Below, piece after piece: positions 52,518-59,045 of a DNA stretch of 64,000 nt. This DNA is from Pseudomonadota bacterium (lineage in GTDB: Bacteria > Pseudomonadota > Alphaproteobacteria > Rhodospirillales > Magnetospirillaceae). The stretch spans positions 1 through 64,000 of the forward strand of contig JAJYTF010000022.1 in the NCBI GenBank assembly GCA_021793155.1. The letters are read 5' to 3'. The position numbers and the translations under genes are program-made. The notes under the pieces are model-generated. The model was not told the DNA's origin, searched no databases, and saw nothing but the letters and a program-made list of their open reading frames with translations. How positions within the stretch are numbered: the first letter of the stretch is position 1; each line of letters starts with the position of its first letter.

Positions 52518-53294
52518 TTACTCGACGATGTCCCGATAGGCGTGCCAGCTGGCGAAGGCGAGCAAGGGCAGAGTGACAGCCAGGCCGATGAAGGCGGTGG
52601 CGAAACCGATCCCGATCAGCAGGACGATGGTCGCCGCCCAGCCCGAGAGCACCCGCCAATTTTCGCGGAACGCCGCGACGCTGGTGGTCATGGCCAGGCT
52701 GGCCGACATGTCGTGGTCGAGCAGCATGGGGATCGACACCACCGAGATGGCGAATACCACGATGGCGATGACGGCACCCGCCGCCGTGCCAACCATCAGG
52801 AAGGGCAGGAATGCGGGCGAAGTGATCATGCCGTAGACGAAATTTTCCAGCGGCGGCGGCGATGCGTGAAAGAACAGCATGAAGATCAGTAGGGCCACCT
52901 GCATCCAGGCGGCTACGCTCAGCATCAATACCAATCCCATGGCGCCCAGGCCTCGGGGATTGCGATTGAATGCCCGCAGCGCGTGTTCGAAGCTCACCGC
53001 GTCGCCACGCTCGATCCGTCGACTGACATCGTAGAGCCCGACCGCCAGGAGAGGGGCGACCAGGAAAAATGCGGCGATCGCTACTGGCACCAGGCTGCCC
53101 AAACCGAGACTGTTCAGACCAAGGACGATCAGGTAGCCGGCGATGACGAAAATGCCGCCATACGCCAGCGACAATATGGGGGCTCGGCGGAAGTCGCCCC
53201 AACCGGCGGCCAGCCAGAGGCTGGCGTCCTCGATGGCGATGCGCCGTACGGCTTCACGTCGAAAGGTCAATCCGGAAAGACTGTCCGTGATCAT
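52518..53294 (-). CDS. DUF2189 family membrane protein
   Basis: A 258-residue protein with about six membrane segments. GDFRRAPILSLAYGGIFVIA, FFLVAPLLAVGLYDVSRRIE and MTSVAAFRENWRVLSGWA-like TSVAAFRENWRVLSGWA are typical of DUF2189, often found near cytochrome oxidase genes. Function unknown. It is divergent from the oxidase-like cluster at 53638. Confidence 0.88.
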   Translation of the reverse strand: MITDSLSGLTFRREAVRRIAIEDASLWLAAGWGDFRRAPILSLAYGGIFVIAGYLIVLGLNSLGLGSLVPVAIAAFFLVAPLLAVGLYDVSRRIERGDAVSFEHALRAFNRNPRGLGAMGLVLMLSVAAWMQVALLIFMLFFHASPPPLENFVYGMITSPAFLPFLMVGTAAGAVIAIVVFAISVVSIPMLLDHDMSASLAMTTSVAAFRENWRVLSGWAATIVLLIGIGFATAFIGLAVTLPLLAFASWHAYRDIVE

Positions 53295-53443
53295 GGTCGA
53301 TCCTCCCCTGTCTCTCGGGTGAGACAATACTCCAGCCTTCCCCAAGTTTGCCTTGCGGGCTAGCCAAGAGGAAGGTCTATTTGAGAATAATTCGTATTAG
53401 CGGGAATACATCGCCCGAACTCCGACTTTTCGCATTGGGCTTT

Positions 53444-53637: not shown

Positions 53638-53763
53638 ATGCTCATCCGTCAGGGGAAGTCCAGCGCCTTCAGCCGAAGAAACCGCCGCCTGGGGGCGATC
53701 CTCGGAGTGGTTGCCGCATTGCTCTACGTGGCCATTGCCTTGCGCTGGTCCGGTGGATTCTAA
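53638..53763 (+). CDS. Small single-span membrane protein
   Basis: A 41-residue frame starting with ATG at 53638: a basic N-terminus (RQGKSSAFSRRNRRLG) and one membrane segment (AILGVVAALLYVAIALRW). It ends five bases before the DUF420 gene, so it likely belongs to that operon. Small one-span proteins are common in oxidase operons; no family assigned. Ribosome binding site is weak. Confidence 0.55.
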   Translation: MLIRQGKSSAFSRRNRRLGAILGVVAALLYVAIALRWSGGF

Positions 53764-53767
53764 GACG

Positions 53768-54193
53768 ATGGCCGCCATCTTGCCGCATGTTACTGCGGCC
53801 CTGAATGCAGCCGCGGCGATCCTGCTGCTGATCGGGTTTGCGCTGATCCGGCAAGGGCGCAGACAGGCCCACCGCGGAGTCATGACGGCCGCGGTGGTGA
53901 CATCGGGATTGTTCCTCGTCGCCTACCTGCTGCACCATGTCACCACTCCATTGTTCGCATTTCGCGGGCAAGGGCTGATCCGTCCCATCTATTTCGCCAT
54001 GCTTGCCTCGCATGTGACCATGGCGGTCGTGGCGGCGCCCATGGTGGTGATCACTTTTCGCCGTGCGCGGCTGGGACTGTTCGACCGGCATCGCGGTCTG
54101 GCCCGGTGGACGTTTCCGGTCTGGCTGTATGTGTCGGTGACCGGGATTGCCGTCTATGTGCTGCTTTACCACGTCTATCGGGTGGAGGCGTGA
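53768..54193 (+). CDS. DUF420 family membrane protein
   Basis: A 141-residue protein with four membrane segments and conserved histidines: LVAYLLHHVTTPLF, IYFAMLASHVTMAVVAAPMV, FDRHRGLARWTFPVWLYVSV and VYVLLYHVYRVEA. DUF420 (YozB/CtaM) proteins occur beside heme-copper oxidase genes; one member is needed for oxidase function in Gram-positives. Overlaps the next gene by one base (TGATG). Confidence 0.9.
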   Translation: MAAILPHVTAALNAAAAILLLIGFALIRQGRRQAHRGVMTAAVVTSGLFLVAYLLHHVTTPLFAFRGQGLIRPIYFAMLASHVTMAVVAAPMVVITFRRARLGLFDRHRGLARWTFPVWLYVSVTGIAVYVLLYHVYRVEA

Positions 54194-55548
54194 TGCGCGA
54201 CACCCTCGAACTTCCGCCAGGTTTGCCGCCGGTCGGCCTCGACGCCGCGGCGCGTCGCGCCCTGTCCGGATGGCTGCTGCTGGCTGTCGGTTCTCTGGCG
54301 GTGGCGGGAGGGTTGGCGCTGCTCCTGGCGCTGGCCCGCACTCCGGTAGTCCAGGACTGGCTGCCCTGGCCGTGGCAGACCTTCTTCCGCAAGGCCCTTG
54401 TCGCCCATGTGGTCTTCGCCTTCGTCGTCTGGTATCTGGCGATGCTGGGGGGGCTGGCGGCGGCGGCGCGGCCAGGCAGCAAGACGAGCCTGGCCGGTCT
54501 GGCCCTTGCCACCTCCGGGGCAATGCTTCTGCTCGTGCCGACCCTGACCAATCAGGGCGAAGCTTCGCTGAACAACTATGTTCCCGTTCTCGTTCACCCG
54601 TTCTTCTATGGCGGGCTGGGGCTGCTGGCCCTGGGCGTGTCGCTGCCCGTTCTGCATCTGCTGCTGCGTCCGCCGGTGTGGGGTGGCGCCCTGGCGATGG
54701 GGGTGGGATCGGCCGGGGTGGTCTACCTGCTTGCCCTGGTCTGCTTCGGACTGGCCTGGTTGCGGCTGCCGGCCGGGGCGACGCTGGGGGCCTATGACGA
54801 GCAGCTGTTCTGGGGCGGCGGCCATCTGCTGCAGTTCGTCCACACGGCGCTGTTGCTGACCGCCTGGCAAATGCTGTCCGAGCAGGCTTTCGAGCGCCCC
54901 TCGCTGCCCCCCAGCGGATGGCGCGCCGTCTGTGCGCTCCTGGTGGCGGCCGCGCTGCCGGGGCCGGTGCTTTACGCCTTGCACGAAACGACAGGCGAGG
55001 CGCTTCGCCACGCCTTTACCAGGCTCTACTGGATCGGATTGCCGCTGCCACCGGCGATCGTCGGTGCCGCGGTCTTGCGGGACATCCTGCGCGGACCCCG
55101 CAATTGGCGGTCTCCGGCCCTTCTCGGTCTTGTCTTGTCGCTTGGTCTGTTCGGTCTGGGCGGTGCCCTGGGTTTCTTCGCCGACGGCGCTGATACGCGA
55201 ACGCCGGCTCATTACCATGCGGTGATCGGCGGCGTGAATCTGGCCTTCATGGGCCTGTTCTTCGCGATCCTGCTGCCGGTGCTGCTGCGAGGTGGAGAGA
55301 ACGGCAGGGCTGTCCGCCTGCAGTTCTGGCTCTACGGTGGCGGCCAGGCGCTGTTTACCGCCGGCATGTTTATCGCCGGTACCGCCGGAGTGGGGCGCAA
55401 GGTGGCGGGCGAGGCCCAAGGGCTGGACAGCGTGGTCAAGCTGACCGGCATGACGATGACGGGGGTGGGAGCGACGGTGGCGGTGATCGGCGGCGCCTTG
55501 TTCGTATGGCACGCTCTTCGCCGTCTGACCGCTTCGCCGCCGCGATAA
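54193..55548 (+). CDS. Atypical heme-copper oxidase subunit I-like protein
   Basis: A 451-residue protein with about 12 membrane segments. Histidines fall where heme-copper oxidases place theirs: helix II (AHVVFAFVVWYLAM, H72), helix VI (FWGGGHLLQFVHTALLL, H211), and helix X (TPAHYHAVIGGVNLAFMGLF, H340 and H342, like the AHFHYVL motif). The usual helix VII His-His pair at the copper site appears as Arg-His (ALRHAFTRLYWIGLP). No subunit II or III is nearby. DUF420 and CtaB neighbours support an oxidase-related role. It could be a divergent oxidase, an NO reductase-like enzyme or a heme-binding membrane sensor. Confidence 0.65.
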   Translation: MRDTLELPPGLPPVGLDAAARRALSGWLLLAVGSLAVAGGLALLLALARTPVVQDWLPWPWQTFFRKALVAHVVFAFVVWYLAMLGGLAAAARPGSKTSLAGLALATSGAMLLLVPTLTNQGEASLNNYVPVLVHPFFYGGLGLLALGVSLPVLHLLLRPPVWGGALAMGVGSAGVVYLLALVCFGLAWLRLPAGATLGAYDEQLFWGGGHLLQFVHTALLLTAWQMLSEQAFERPSLPPSGWRAVCALLVAAALPGPVLYALHETTGEALRHAFTRLYWIGLPLPPAIVGAAVLRDILRGPRNWRSPALLGLVLSLGLFGLGGALGFFADGADTRTPAHYHAVIGGVNLAFMGLFFAILLPVLLRGGENGRAVRLQFWLYGGGQALFTAGMFIAGTAGVGRKVAGEAQGLDSVVKLTGMTMTGVGATVAVIGGALFVWHALRRLTASPPR

Positions 55549-55579
55549 GAAACCGCGAACCGGGAGGCAACGGCGAGAA

Positions 55580-56440
55580 ATGACGATTCGATCCTATGTC
55601 GAACTCATGAAATTGCGCATTGGGGTGATGGTCGCCCTGATGGCGGTGATGGGCTACGTGGCCGTCGCCGATCGAGTGAATCCCGCCCAGATGGCCGTGC
55701 TGGCGCTCGCCATGCTGCTGGGGTCGGCCAGCTCGTCAGTGTTCAATCATTTCTACGATCGCGACATCGACCGGCTGATGCAACGGACCTGTCGACGGCC
55801 GCTGGCGAGCGGACAGGCCTCGCGCCCGGAACATGTGCTCTGGCTGGCCGGGCTCCTGCTGGCCGCCGGCTGCGGTCTGGCGACGCACTACTTCAACCCG
55901 GTGGTAGCCCTTCACCTGTTTCTCGGCGCCTTTTTCTACGCGATCGTCTATACCGTATGGCTGAAGCGCAGGACCTGGCTCAACATCGTCATCGGCGGTG
56001 CTGCGGGCAGCTTCGCCGTGTTGGCGGGCGGGGCGGCGGTCGATCCGGGCCGGTGGCTGTTGCCGTTTCTCCTCTCCATCACATTGTTCCTGTGGACACC
56101 CAGCCATTTTTGGAGCCTGGCCATCGTCCTGAAGGACGACTATGCCAAAGCTGGCGTGCCCATGCTGCCGGTGGTTAAGGGAGACAGGGCCACTGCGCGG
56201 GTGATCATGCTCAACAGCCTGTTGCTGGTGGGTTCGTCCCTGTTGCCTGTGGCGTTCGGTTGTCTGGGCTGGATCTACGGGGGCGGGGCGCTGGCCTTTG
56301 GCGGCCATTTCCTGTGGACCAACGGGCGGCTGCTGGCTGAGCCGAGCCGGGCTCGGGCAAGGAAGAACTTCTTCGAGTCGATGATCTATCTGGTCGGTTT
56401 GTTCATTGCCGTGGTCATCGACGTAAATATGCGCCGATAA
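55580..56440 (+). CDS. ctaB: Protoheme IX farnesyltransferase (heme O synthase)
   Basis: A 286-residue membrane prenyltransferase (UbiA superfamily) converting heme B to heme O. Asp-rich motif NHFYDRDIDRLMQRTCRRPL and second motif YTVWLKRRTWLNIVIGGAAG with LWTPSHFWSLAIVLKDDY are diagnostic. Follows the oxidase-like gene by 31 bases in the same operon. Confidence 0.95.
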   Translation: MTIRSYVELMKLRIGVMVALMAVMGYVAVADRVNPAQMAVLALAMLLGSASSSVFNHFYDRDIDRLMQRTCRRPLASGQASRPEHVLWLAGLLLAAGCGLATHYFNPVVALHLFLGAFFYAIVYTVWLKRRTWLNIVIGGAAGSFAVLAGGAAVDPGRWLLPFLLSITLFLWTPSHFWSLAIVLKDDYAKAGVPMLPVVKGDRATARVIMLNSLLLVGSSLLPVAFGCLGWIYGGGALAFGGHFLWTNGRLLAEPSRARARKNFFESMIYLVGLFIAVVIDVNMRR

Positions 56441-56488: not shown

Positions 56489-57103
56489 TCACGCCAAAGG
56501 CGTGCCCACTGGAAGTACGTCTTTTCCGAACAAGTCCTTATAGATAGCGCTGGCCATCATGTACCAGGCGCCGAGAGCGCAAGCGATCAGGTCCCAGCCT
56601 GCGAGCTTGCCCATTTCCTCGCCGGCTCCGAAATGCTCGAGGTCGAGGAGGATGAAGCCCACCAACAAGGTGGTAAAGGTGAACAGCATTGCCTTGCTGA
56701 TCTTGAACGAGCCGATCCACAGAATGGCCGTGTACAGCGTCCAGCCCACCAGGAACCAACCGACGTCGGTGCCGCTGACGGGGAACAGGTTGTAGTTCTT
56801 CGCCACCAGGATGGCCGCCAGCGAAATCCAGAAGGCGCCATAGGACACAAAGGCTGAAAAGCCGAAATTGTTGCCCATCTTCTGTTCCTGGTAGCCGGCG
56901 ATCAGCTGTGCCATGCCACCAAAGAAGAAACCGAGCCAAATGACCGGGCCAACGCCGGCCCATCCGAGGTTGTGAAACTGCAGCAGCAAAGTGGTCATAC
57001 CGAATCCGGCCAAACCGACTACCGCTGGATTGCCTAACTTGGGCGCTGCTGCCGCCGCCGGTTGTGTTGCCGGATCGATGGCGAATTGGCTGAGTTGAGA
57101 CAT
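56489..57103 (-). CDS. satP: Acetate/succinate channel, GPR1/FUN34/YaaH (SatP) family
   Basis: A 204-residue membrane protein with six segments. The family signature LGNPAVVGLAGFGMTTLLLQ is close to the NPAPLGL motif, and IAGYQEQKMGNNFGFSAFVS matches the second block. Imports acetate or succinate. The ATG at 57103 is clear. The upstream region to 57291 is AT-richer and probably holds the promoter. Confidence 0.92.
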   Translation of the reverse strand: MSQLSQFAIDPATQPAAAAAPKLGNPAVVGLAGFGMTTLLLQFHNLGWAGVGPVIWLGFFFGGMAQLIAGYQEQKMGNNFGFSAFVSYGAFWISLAAILVAKNYNLFPVSGTDVGWFLVGWTLYTAILWIGSFKISKAMLFTFTTLLVGFILLDLEHFGAGEEMGKLAGWDLIACALGAWYMMASAIYKDLFGKDVLPVGTPLA

Positions 57104-57291: not shown

Positions 57292-58077
57292 TTATGGTTG
57301 GGAGGCCAAGCCTCTCTCGCGCTTCTCGACCCGGGCCATCGAGCCCAGAAGGCAGACTGCGGCCCAGGCGACCGTCACGGCCAGGGCGATCAGATAGCGT
57401 TGGTCGAGGAAAAGCGCGTCGGGCGTCTTGTAGAACGGGCTGCGCATCAGCACCAGCGCATGGGCGACCGGGTTCAACGTCATGAGCACGTGCAGCCAGC
57501 CAGGAGCGCGTTCGATGGGGAACAGGGCACCGGACAGCATCCACAACGGCATCAGGAACACCATCATGATGGCATGAAATCCGGCCGAGGACCGCATGCT
57601 CCAGGCGAAGAAGAATCCCATGGCGGCGAACCCGACGCTGGTCAGGACATAGGCGGCGATCAGCAGGGCCAGCGAGCCTAAGCCCAGATGCAGGCCGAGG
57701 AACGGAGCGGCGAGGGTAAAGATCAGTGTCTGCACCATGGCGATGGCAGTACCGCCGAGCACCTTGCCCAGCACGATGGCCATGCGAGATACCGGCGCCA
57801 CCAGGACGCTCTGCAGGAATCCGGCATCCCTGTCCTCAATGATGGTAATGGAAGAGAAGATGCTGGCAAACAGCATCATCATCAGCATGACGCCAGGGTA
57901 GAAATATTCGAGGTAGCTCACGTTCTCCATGCCGGGGGCGCGGAACGAGGAACTGAAGCCGGAGCCCAGGAACAGCCAAAATAAGATTGGCTGGGCTACG
58001 GTGCCGATCACCCGCTGTGGCTGACGGATAAAGCGGACGAATTCACGCTTGGCCAGAGCGAAAACAACACGAATCAT
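57292..58077 (-). CDS. ABC-2 type exporter permease
   Basis: A 261-residue permease with six membrane segments; YLEYFYPGVMLMMMLFASIF and FLQSVLVAPVSRMAIVLGKV are typical of ABC-2 permeases of the DrrB/NodJ kind. Substrate unknown. The ATG at 58077 overlaps the ATPase stop in ATGA. Confidence 0.9.
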   Translation of the reverse strand: MIRVVFALAKREFVRFIRQPQRVIGTVAQPILFWLFLGSGFSSSFRAPGMENVSYLEYFYPGVMLMMMLFASIFSSITIIEDRDAGFLQSVLVAPVSRMAIVLGKVLGGTAIAMVQTLIFTLAAPFLGLHLGLGSLALLIAAYVLTSVGFAAMGFFFAWSMRSSAGFHAIMMVFLMPLWMLSGALFPIERAPGWLHVLMTLNPVAHALVLMRSPFYKTPDALFLDQRYLIALAVTVAWAAVCLLGSMARVEKRERGLASQP

Positions 58078-59045
58078 GGGGTAGCTATCTCCAGTTGCTC
58101 GCTTTCGACCTCCTGCGCCGTCTTGCCGGTCAGATGGATGAAAACGTCTTCAAGGGCTGGCTGCTTGATGGCGATGCTGTCGATGTCAGCCCGATAGCGG
58201 GTCAGCAGTTCTTCGAGGATGGGCAAGCCGGCGCCGTTGTCGGTCTCTTCAAGGCGGATCTCCTCGCCATGGCGCCGTGTCCGCAAGTGCAGGTCGGCAT
58301 GAATGCGGGCTTCCAGGCCCAGGGGGTTGCGGCTTTGCACCACCACCATTTCGCGGCCCAACCCGGCCCTCAGCGTCTGGGGGCTGTCCAGGGCCAGCAG
58401 CTGTCCCCCCTTCATGATTGCAACCCGGTCCGCATCCTCGGCTTCCGAGAAGATATGGCTGGTCATCAGCACCGTCATCTTGCGGCCGCGTTGAATGCTG
58501 TGCAGGGCCGTGACGAAATTTCGCCGGCTGCTCGGATCGAGGCCGGTGGTCGGTTCGTCCAGCAGCAGGATTTTCGGGCGGGTGAGCAGGCATTTTGCCA
58601 ATTCGACCTGTCGGGCCAAGCCTCCTGACAACGTATCCACCTTGTCGGGCAAACGGTCCTTGAGGTCGGTCCAGCCCAGTGCCTCGTCAAGGCGTTCGGC
58701 CAAGTCGCGGCCCTTCAGGCCGTAAAGGTCGGCGTGCAGGCGAAGGTTTTCCCTCACCGTCAGATGCTTGTCCACGGCCGGGCTCTGGAACACCACCGCC
58801 ATCTGCGCGCGGGCTATGGCGGGCTCCTTCAGCAGGTCGCTGCCGGCGATGCAGATGCTGCCGGACGACGGCAGGGTCATCCCGCACAGGATGCGGAACA
58901 GCGTCGACTTGCCGCTGCCGTTGGGCCCCGAGAGGATGCAGAATTCGCCCTCGCCGATGGTCAGCGAGAGGTCGGATATGGCGGTGCGAGGGGGGGATTT
59001 CCGGGTGCCCGGATAGACGTGGGTCAGGTGCTGAATACGGATCAT
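58074..59045 (-). CDS. ABC-2 type exporter ATP-binding protein
   Basis: A 323-residue ATPase of the DrrA/CcmA-like class: Walker A LSGPNGSGKSTLFRILCG, signature TLSGGLARQVELAKCLL, Walker B ILLLDEPTTGLDPSSRR. The C-terminal ~100 residues form the extra domain found in drug or lipid exporters. Substrate unknown. Confidence 0.92.
   Translation of the reverse strand: MIRIQHLTHVYPGTRKSPPRTAISDLSLTIGEGEFCILSGPNGSGKSTLFRILCGMTLPSSGSICIAGSDLLKEPAIARAQMAVVFQSPAVDKHLTVRENLRLHADLYGLKGRDLAERLDEALGWTDLKDRLPDKVDTLSGGLARQVELAKCLLTRPKILLLDEPTTGLDPSSRRNFVTALHSIQRGRKMTVLMTSHIFSEAEDADRVAIMKGGQLLALDSPQTLRAGLGREMVVVQSRNPLGLEARIHADLHLRTRRHGEEIRLEETDNGAGLPILEELLTRYRADIDSIAIKQPALEDVFIHLTGKTAQEVESEQLEIATP

Follow-up and report, generated by a model that had tools for sequence, protein, structure and literature searches.

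Heme A insertion is described in a review as not understood, and the same review sees gene duplication as a possible origin of biogenesis factors (PMC9145763). Two factors are of interest here: Surf1, whose proposed role is the handling of heme A for subunit I (PMC9145763), and CtaM (a DUF420 protein), which is needed for aa3 oxidase maturation in the Bacillota, a group that lacks Surf1, and which is lacking in three Surf1-bearing taxa that the review names (PMC9145763, PMC4958251). These accounts of Bacillota CtaM describe no subunit-I-like partner for it. Here we analyze a locus at which such a partner is encoded: a 64,000-nucleotide stretch of an alphaproteobacterial genome (referred to hereafter as the window; positions 1–64,000 of contig JAJYTF010000022.1, assembly GCA_021793155.1) carries a DUF420 gene of the same Pfam family as CtaM, followed by a gene for a subunit-I-like protein that we name COX1L (COX1-like); the linkage of this DUF420 to CtaB and CtaA is as reported for Bacillota (PMC4958251).

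COX1L resembles subunit I of the aa3 and ba3 heme-copper oxidases (HCO) in its fold, in the histidines of helices II, VI and X, and in an RR/RK propionate motif; unlike these proteins it lacks the His-His pair of the CuB site and the active-site Tyr, and it is about 450 residues long. Its closest HCO relatives, both in profile searches and in a tree, are the subunits I of eNOR, with which it shares a W-x-x-GH motif, a Gln three residues after that His (H+3) and a set of gene clusters (L055–L058, L094–L096, numbers being those of our surveyed loci). eNOR keeps AHH in helix VII and a diagnostic Gln at H+4 (PMC8756737), whereas COX1L has neither, and is also shorter (451 residues against about 566). 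Surf1, for which a similar role has been proposed, belongs to a different Pfam family (PF02104) and is rarely found in the same genome as COX1L. Among the literature matches listed, in which subscription papers and preprints are thinly covered, we found no description of a CuB-less subunit I family, and two papers on respiratory oxidases among them (PMC3395247, PMC10815991) do not, from their listings, deal with one; an HCO classifier discards sequences lacking the six histidines (PMC3084760), which may be why this family is unnamed.

We propose, with confidence that is about evenly balanced, that COX1L, together with DUF420, works in heme-A enzyme biogenesis as a “shadow” oxidase without CuB.

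Results

COX1L retains oxidase heme ligand positions and lacks the copper pair

The gene and the codons on which the comparison turns are the following:

54193–55548, plus strand: COX1L, 451 residues, HCO fold without the CuB His-His pair (PF00115, 39.9 bits; cut-off 34.8)
54406–54408, plus strand: codon of H72, helix II His, low-spin heme ligand position (invariant in 61/61 rows)
54823–54825, plus strand: codon of H211, helix VI His, the sole kept CuB ligand position, in the motif FWGGGH-x-LQ (invariant in 61/61 rows)
54970–54975, plus strand: codons of L260-Y261, expected site of the helix VII His-His pair (alignments)
55006–55011, plus strand: codons of R272-H273, an Arg-His pair in the next helix (alignments and structural model)
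55210–55218, plus strand: codons of H340-Y341-H342, helix X heme ligand pair (HYH in 61/61 rows)

An AlphaFold2 (AF2) model of COX1L (predicted local distance difference test, pLDDT, 79.6; predicted template modelling score, pTM, 0.84) has ba3 and aa3 oxidases as its best Foldseek matches. The VIA comparison gave Z 26.8 against an aa3-type chain (6adq_F; root-mean-square deviation, rmsd, 3.8; 398 residues aligned) and Z 24.9 against cNOR (rmsd 4.5, 397 aligned), with aa3 and ba3 subunit I matches among the rows listed spanning Z 23.6–26.8, rmsd 3.6–4.6 and 388–415 aligned residues. Together with the Pfam score, the predicted fold places COX1L in the HCO superfamily, with its 12-helix COX1 fold. 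Searches returned no NCBIfam family for the protein, no PDB chain by sequence at E ≤ 1 and no match among plasmid records. In a FastTree phylogeny (82 sequences, 427 columns, no ba3-family sequence included), COX1L and its longer, TPR-type paralogs form a single clade (support 0.997) that is sister to eNOR (1.0), the latter being recognized by Gln at H+4 (the criterion of PMC8756737).

We aligned COX1L with 31 relatives and later in a set comprising 56 COX1L rows (window included), five TPR-type paralogs, ten eNORs, and A-family, cbb3 and cNOR sequences; the 56 and the five make up the 61 family rows referred to here (60 distinct, as L039 and L128 are the same gene). H72, which aligns with the helix II His of aa3, cbb3, cNOR and eNOR, is invariant in 56/56 COX1L and 5/5 TPR-type rows, as are H211, H340 and H342, in agreement with a preliminary description of the window that had the helix II, VI and X histidines kept. 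R402-K403, on the heme propionate side, is likewise invariant (61/61), and Q214 and Y341 are fixed polar residues in the family rows. The allotment of individual histidines to the low- or high-spin heme is presumed to follow established HCO structures, and for CuA, heme ligands and HCO types we used motifs that we take to be diagnostic. The helix II and helix X heme histidines of HCO enzymes are thus all present in the family (H72, H340 and H342), and COX1L probably holds two hemes.

The copper site is different. The His-His pair of eNOR, cbb3 and cNOR aligns to Leu260-Tyr261, and that of aa3 to the same residues in one alignment and one residue later (261–262) in two others. Columns 260 and 262 are never His, column 261 is Tyr in 31 rows and His in 11, and no row out of 61 has His-His anywhere within columns 260–262 (an HH dipeptide occurs somewhere in four of the 61 sequences, in none of them at these columns). 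The first CuB His is absent from every row, such that only H211 of helix VI remains from the three-His CuB/FeB site of HCO enzymes. At H+4 of the helix VI His the window has Phe215 (Phe in 46/56 COX1L rows, Tyr in 2/56), compared with Gln in 7/7 eNOR and Tyr in 5/5 aa3 rows; COX1L therefore has neither the active-site Tyr that is cross-linked to a CuB His in oxygen reductases of the A and B families nor the eNOR pairing of Gln at H+4 with AHH in helix VII. Judged by these alignments, it is the copper site that seems impaired, the heme sites appearing complete.

The preliminary description had Arg-His in place of the helix VII pair; loss of the pair was correctly seen, but the site corresponds to Leu260-Tyr261, and the Arg-His it named is Arg272-His273. 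The AF2 model terminates helix VII at residue 263 and puts R272-H273 early in the helix that follows (269–282). We considered this dipeptide as a remnant copper pair and rejected it, given the wrong helix and poor conservation (H273 is His in 3/31 rows). The broader claim, that this is an oxidase-like protein not described before and changed at its copper site, finds support in both the fold comparison and the helix VII alignment, the change being family-wide.

DUF420 may be a copy of the subunit III core

53768–54193, plus strand: DUF420 (CtaM-type), 141 residues, four helices (PF04238, 133.8 bits; cut-off 30.5)

The DUF420 stop codon is overlapped by the COX1L start codon. Its PF04238 score makes the protein a member of the CtaM/DUF420 family, and histidines 7, 35, 82 and 108 are kept in 48/48 sequences. 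The AF2 model (pLDDT 78.8, pTM 0.66) matches residues ~125–261, the last four helices, of many chains taken as oxidase subunit III; in the VIA comparison with 5j4z chain BC (residues 124–260) it gave Z 15.2 and rmsd 3.3 over 134 aligned residues. We assume here that chain C of the fold table (BC in 5j4z) is subunit III. De novo four-helix bundles match the model equally well (Z 15.7, rmsd 2.5, 126 aligned), and fold alone therefore proves little for this kinship.

Profile comparisons are more informative on this point. In three genomes (G005, G019, G040), PF04238 matches COX3 genes over their C-terminal half at scores below the cut-off (22.4–22.9 bits), and hhalign of DUF420 against COX3 gives a score of 29.7 (P 9e-4, probability 23%), or 37.0 with the roles swapped (P 6e-5, 66%). 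In control runs, six other membrane families gave P 0.046–0.25 and reversed sequence P 0.3, and up to 60 block shuffles reached at most 24.4 compared with 29.7. The COX3 profile itself (PF00510) listed no match for six DUF420 proteins at E 10, a search in which HMMER filters drop most matches above 0.1. Descent of DUF420/CtaM from subunit III is hence a good lead, though not a settled one. An alternative origin of DUF420 as half of CtaA has been proposed (PMC8239418) and disputed (PMC12808453); we set it aside on the hhalign result (P 0.047 to CtaA vs 9e-4 to COX3). No CtaA chain is among the 50 fold matches listed for the DUF420 model, which excludes nothing.

COX1L is conserved and tracks DUF420 and CtaA

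COX1L is present in 50/61 genomes of the order, source genome included (the raw tally was 51; G051, with a match of 23.9 bits in a 566-residue frame, was dropped). Outside the order, 4/285 genomes of a class sample hold COX1L at 200 bits or more, and outside the class, 55 genomes of a phylum sample hold COX1L or the longer TPR-type form at above 100 bits, four of which (G390, G455, G492, G511) seem by frame length to hold only the latter; at most five candidate places per genome were scored in the class sample and four in the phylum sample, and absences are accordingly soft. The family is conserved across the order and in other proteobacterial classes. Ratios of nonsynonymous to synonymous substitution rates (dN/dS) over the six closest relatives are 0.07–0.24 for COX1L, 0.10–0.22 for DUF420 and 0.05–0.16 for CtaB; on these values we rejected the notion of a fragmentary or dying COX1L gene.

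Across the same 61 genomes (with tests that take no account of relatedness), DUF420 occurs in 48, all of which carry COX1L (Fisher p 2e-10); DUF420 is missing from two COX1L genomes, whose completeness is 80% and 85%. Heme A synthase, CtaA, occurs in 49/50 COX1L genomes compared with 3/11 of the others (Fisher p 5e-7). Surf1 shows the opposite tendency: it is present in 2/50 COX1L genomes of the order vs 218/289 of the class sample, and in 1/55 carriers outside the class (of COX1L or the TPR paralog) vs 217/398 of the whole phylum sample. The COX1L-negative genome G030 has Surf1 and an aa3 operon that contains CtaB.

Gene neighborhoods of COX1L

Downstream of COX1L, the window carries the following genes:

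55580–56440, plus strand: CtaB, heme O synthase (TIGR01473, 270.3 bits; cut-off 210.3)
56489–57103, minus strand: GPR1/FUN34/YaaH-family gene, between CtaB and an ABC exporter (Pfam scan)
57292–58077, minus strand: ABC-2 exporter permease (PF01061, 106.6 bits)
58074–59045, minus strand: ABC exporter ATPase, partner of the permease (PF00005, 117.3 bits)

We surveyed fetched loci with purpose-built profiles over a 6-kb radius (for the order, 38 loci from 36 genomes, with L131 and L132 from one genome and L039 and L128 the same gene; beyond it, 21 loci; truncation by a contig end scored as a miss). Within the order, DUF420 lies within 6 kb of COX1L at 28/38 loci and CtaB at 26/38, while a CuA-type subunit II and an aa3 operon are each found at 13/38, CtaA at 7/38, the ABC exporter pair at 5/38 (four genomes) and eNOR at 4/38. 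Outside the order the corresponding counts are CtaA 8/21, exporter 4/21, CtaB 4/21, DUF420 3/21 and eNOR 2/21, with a third eNOR (L094) just beyond 6 kb. Where DUF420 is unlinked from COX1L (16 genomes), CtaB is the next gene after it in 16/16. The exporter pair adjoins COX1L at L096, L098, L110 and L111 (sitting between COX1L and DUF420 at L098 and L110) and adjoins DUF420-CtaB at L148 and L155; in the window it lies at 57292–59045, beyond CtaB and the YaaH-type gene.

The source genome (99.94% complete) has Telmatospirillum, order Rhodospirillales, as its closest named relatives; the named relatives in our set comprise two species of that order, Telmatospirillum siberiense (L045) and Roseospira marina (L044), along with metagenome-assembled genomes. 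Its aa3 operon is without CtaB, which sits instead in the window cluster and is the only heme O synthase above cut-off in a search of the genome (the next match, at 90.7 bits, falls below). Adjacency to CtaB is for that reason no proof in itself that COX1L needs heme O or A. Eight further COX1 matches lie elsewhere in the genome (contigs C64, C45, C3, C10, C25, C62 and C60), two of them, at contig ends, probably pieces of one gene; on inspection they appear to include aa3, cbb3 and cNOR types. All four COX2 matches are likewise on other contigs (C64, C3, C45, C53), and no CuA subunit II is encoded within the 64-kb window. The earlier picture of an operon without subunits II and III holds for the window in that none is recognized there; DUF420, however, resembles the end of subunit III, and relatives carry a CuA subunit II. 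The two-subunit arrangement of a cytochrome c oxidase, with CuA subunit II in the operon, is thus missing from the window and found at 13/38 loci of the order.

The TPR-fused paralog (L113:1997-3916, L114:5242-7167, L115:6121-8256) lies directly 3′ of ResB- and CcsA-like genes (Pfam on L113 only). At L112 the TPR part is a separate open reading frame (ORF), and multiheme cytochromes are encoded farther on at L112, L114 and L115. The ResB/CcsA neighbors tie this paralog to cytochrome c biogenesis, which we count in favor of a biogenesis role for the family.

The eNOR clusters near COX1L (L055–L058, L094–L096) also encode a fusion of cytochrome b with a [4Fe-4S] dicluster and an FlpD/MvhD domain (Pfam test on L058) and a conserved protein of ~167 residues without a Pfam family (one member tested); L097 has the same cytochrome b-FeS set, with no eNOR on its short contig.

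Discussion

A proposed shadow oxidase in heme-A enzyme biogenesis

We suggest that COX1L arose as a copy of oxidase subunit I and was repurposed. It keeps the predicted fold of the HCO proteins, the two heme sites and a single copper ligand position, and has lost the CuB pair together with the active-site Tyr/Gln; with these gone, the known mechanism of O2 or NO reduction should not be open to it. With DUF420/CtaM, itself an apparent copy of the subunit III core, it may form a “shadow” complex that serves the cell's heme-A respiratory enzymes. The likeliest step would be to hold or check heme O or A (made by CtaB and CtaA) or to pass it on to the subunit I of either aa3 oxidase or eNOR, and the next likeliest another late step such as formation of the copper site; where an adjacent CuA subunit is encoded, it could be a docking partner or feed electrons to the COX1L hemes. 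In many other alphaproteobacteria the likeliest of these steps is attributed to Surf1, and COX1L with DUF420 would be a case of biogenesis factors derived from gene duplication. The preliminary description had offered an oxidase-like enzyme, an NO-handling protein or a sensor; the genomic surroundings speak more for a part in building heme-A oxidases, through the co-occurrence with DUF420 and CtaA and the links to CtaB, CtaA, the ABC exporter and aa3 operons. A connection to NO is conceivable, given the sister relationship to eNOR and the location of COX1L in eNOR clusters (L055–L058, L094–L096).

Several observations weigh against a biogenesis role. A CuA subunit II follows directly 3′ of COX1L at 13/38 loci of the order, with the usual ligand motif in 12/13 (Glu is replaced by Gln in L062), a placement more natural for an electron-transfer enzyme than for a chaperone. 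In the eNOR clusters L055–L058 and L094–L096, COX1L stands beside cytochrome b-FeS proteins, not DUF420, and among the 18 loci outside the class (several cut by contig ends) four (L100, L104, L107, L109) have no linked family and L099 only a 31-bit match. Four COX1L genomes (G001, G025, G042, G044) lack an aa3-type COX3 at our own threshold of at least 75 bits, two of them being incomplete (G025 80%, G042 76%). Surf1 and COX1L occur together in five genomes (G040, G049, G118, G169, G681), and G039 (99% complete), like the less complete G051 and G056, has aa3-type COX3 and neither protein; the idea of Surf1 as a strict alternative to COX1L is hence too strong, and we dropped it. Within CtaA-positive genomes of the order the Surf1 contrast is not significant (2/47/1/2, p 0.17), reaching p 6e-4 only with the inclusion of three further genomes of the order whose CtaA status was untested. 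Common descent could account for most of the co-occurrence, and a few families supply the bulk of the 55 genomes from outside the class. Finally, Bacillus subtilis without CtaM still forms hemes a and a3, and the review that reports this favors CuB or another late step over heme insertion (PMC9145763).

The main competitor to a role in biogenesis, clearly less probable and yet a real contender, is that COX1L is an autonomous electron-transfer enzyme, in which cytochrome c would deliver electrons by way of a CuA subunit II to the low-spin heme and from there to a high-spin heme free of copper; the latter would either react with a ligand (NO, O2, peroxide) or hand the electrons to a partner. The CuA gene right after COX1L at 13/38 loci is its strongest point; the invariance of both heme sites, the fixed polar residues Q214 and Y341, the fully supported (1.0) sister position to eNOR and the clusters held in common with eNOR and cytochrome b-FeS-FlpD proteins (L055–L058, L094–L096) also argue for it. 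Set against these are the missing CuB pair and active-site Tyr/Gln, the close tie of COX1L to CtaM, CtaB and CtaA, and the lack of a subunit II in the clade of the window, whose genome has its four COX2 matches on other contigs. An improbable alternative, a heme-based sensor or scavenger of O2 or NO that needs heme O or A, draws on the ligand room that a high-spin heme position without copper beside H211 would leave, and on the presence of eNOR in some carriers. The window COX1L has no output domain, however, no recurring regulator is among the neighbor families named (no search aimed at regulators was made), and the CtaB adjacency is explained by CtaB being the only heme O synthase.

Two further readings we regard as very improbable, to a similar degree. 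Decay into a functionless oxidase copy would fit the lost catalytic ligands and a Pfam COX1 score barely above cut-off; it conflicts with the dN/dS of 0.07–0.24 in close relatives, with heme ligands fixed across classes and with retention in 50/61 genomes of the order. An ordinary heme-copper oxidase with overlooked copper ligands might be suspected from the His at the second CuB position in 11/61 rows and from the one-residue shift of the aa3 register between alignments, but neither register yields a His-His row, His being absent from columns 260 and 262 throughout the 61 rows.

A wider version of the biogenesis model, that a shadow oxidase assembled from copies of subunits I, III and, in some lineages, II is the heme-A insertion machine of Surf1-less bacteria, with assembly factors derived from a duplicated enzyme, strikes us as doubtful at present, and the CtaM result in B. 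subtilis lowers its odds slightly. There are also practical consequences: in its tracking of CtaM and CtaA, COX1L offers a concrete, conserved, copper-less protein for deletion; it is a warning that COX1 Pfam matches should not be counted as oxidases; and superfamily catalogues that demand all six histidines (as in PMC3084760) would miss families of this type.

Other genes of the cluster

Two genes upstream of DUF420 complete the locus:

52518–53345, minus strand: DUF2189 membrane protein, divergent neighbor (PF09955, 128 bits; only the window copy Pfam-tested)
53638–53763, plus strand: 41-residue single-helix membrane protein, first gene of the cluster (ORF)

A sequence cluster around the DUF2189 protein recurs at 10/25 loci, two of them the same record, and its link to COX1L is uncertain. 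The four cluster genes named in the preliminary description (41-residue ORF, DUF420, COX1-like gene, CtaB) are confirmed by the ORFs and profile scores at the place it gave (53638–56440), all on the plus strand. The 41-residue protein matches no Pfam or NCBIfam family, and tblastn finds none in L042, L043, L044, L059 or L070. It is encoded upstream of DUF420 in four of the six closest relatives, directly 5′ of it in L039, L040, L041 and L045 (tblastn, 46–81% identity over the aligned part), and its dN/dS across those relatives is 0.05–0.26 (L045 not being computable).

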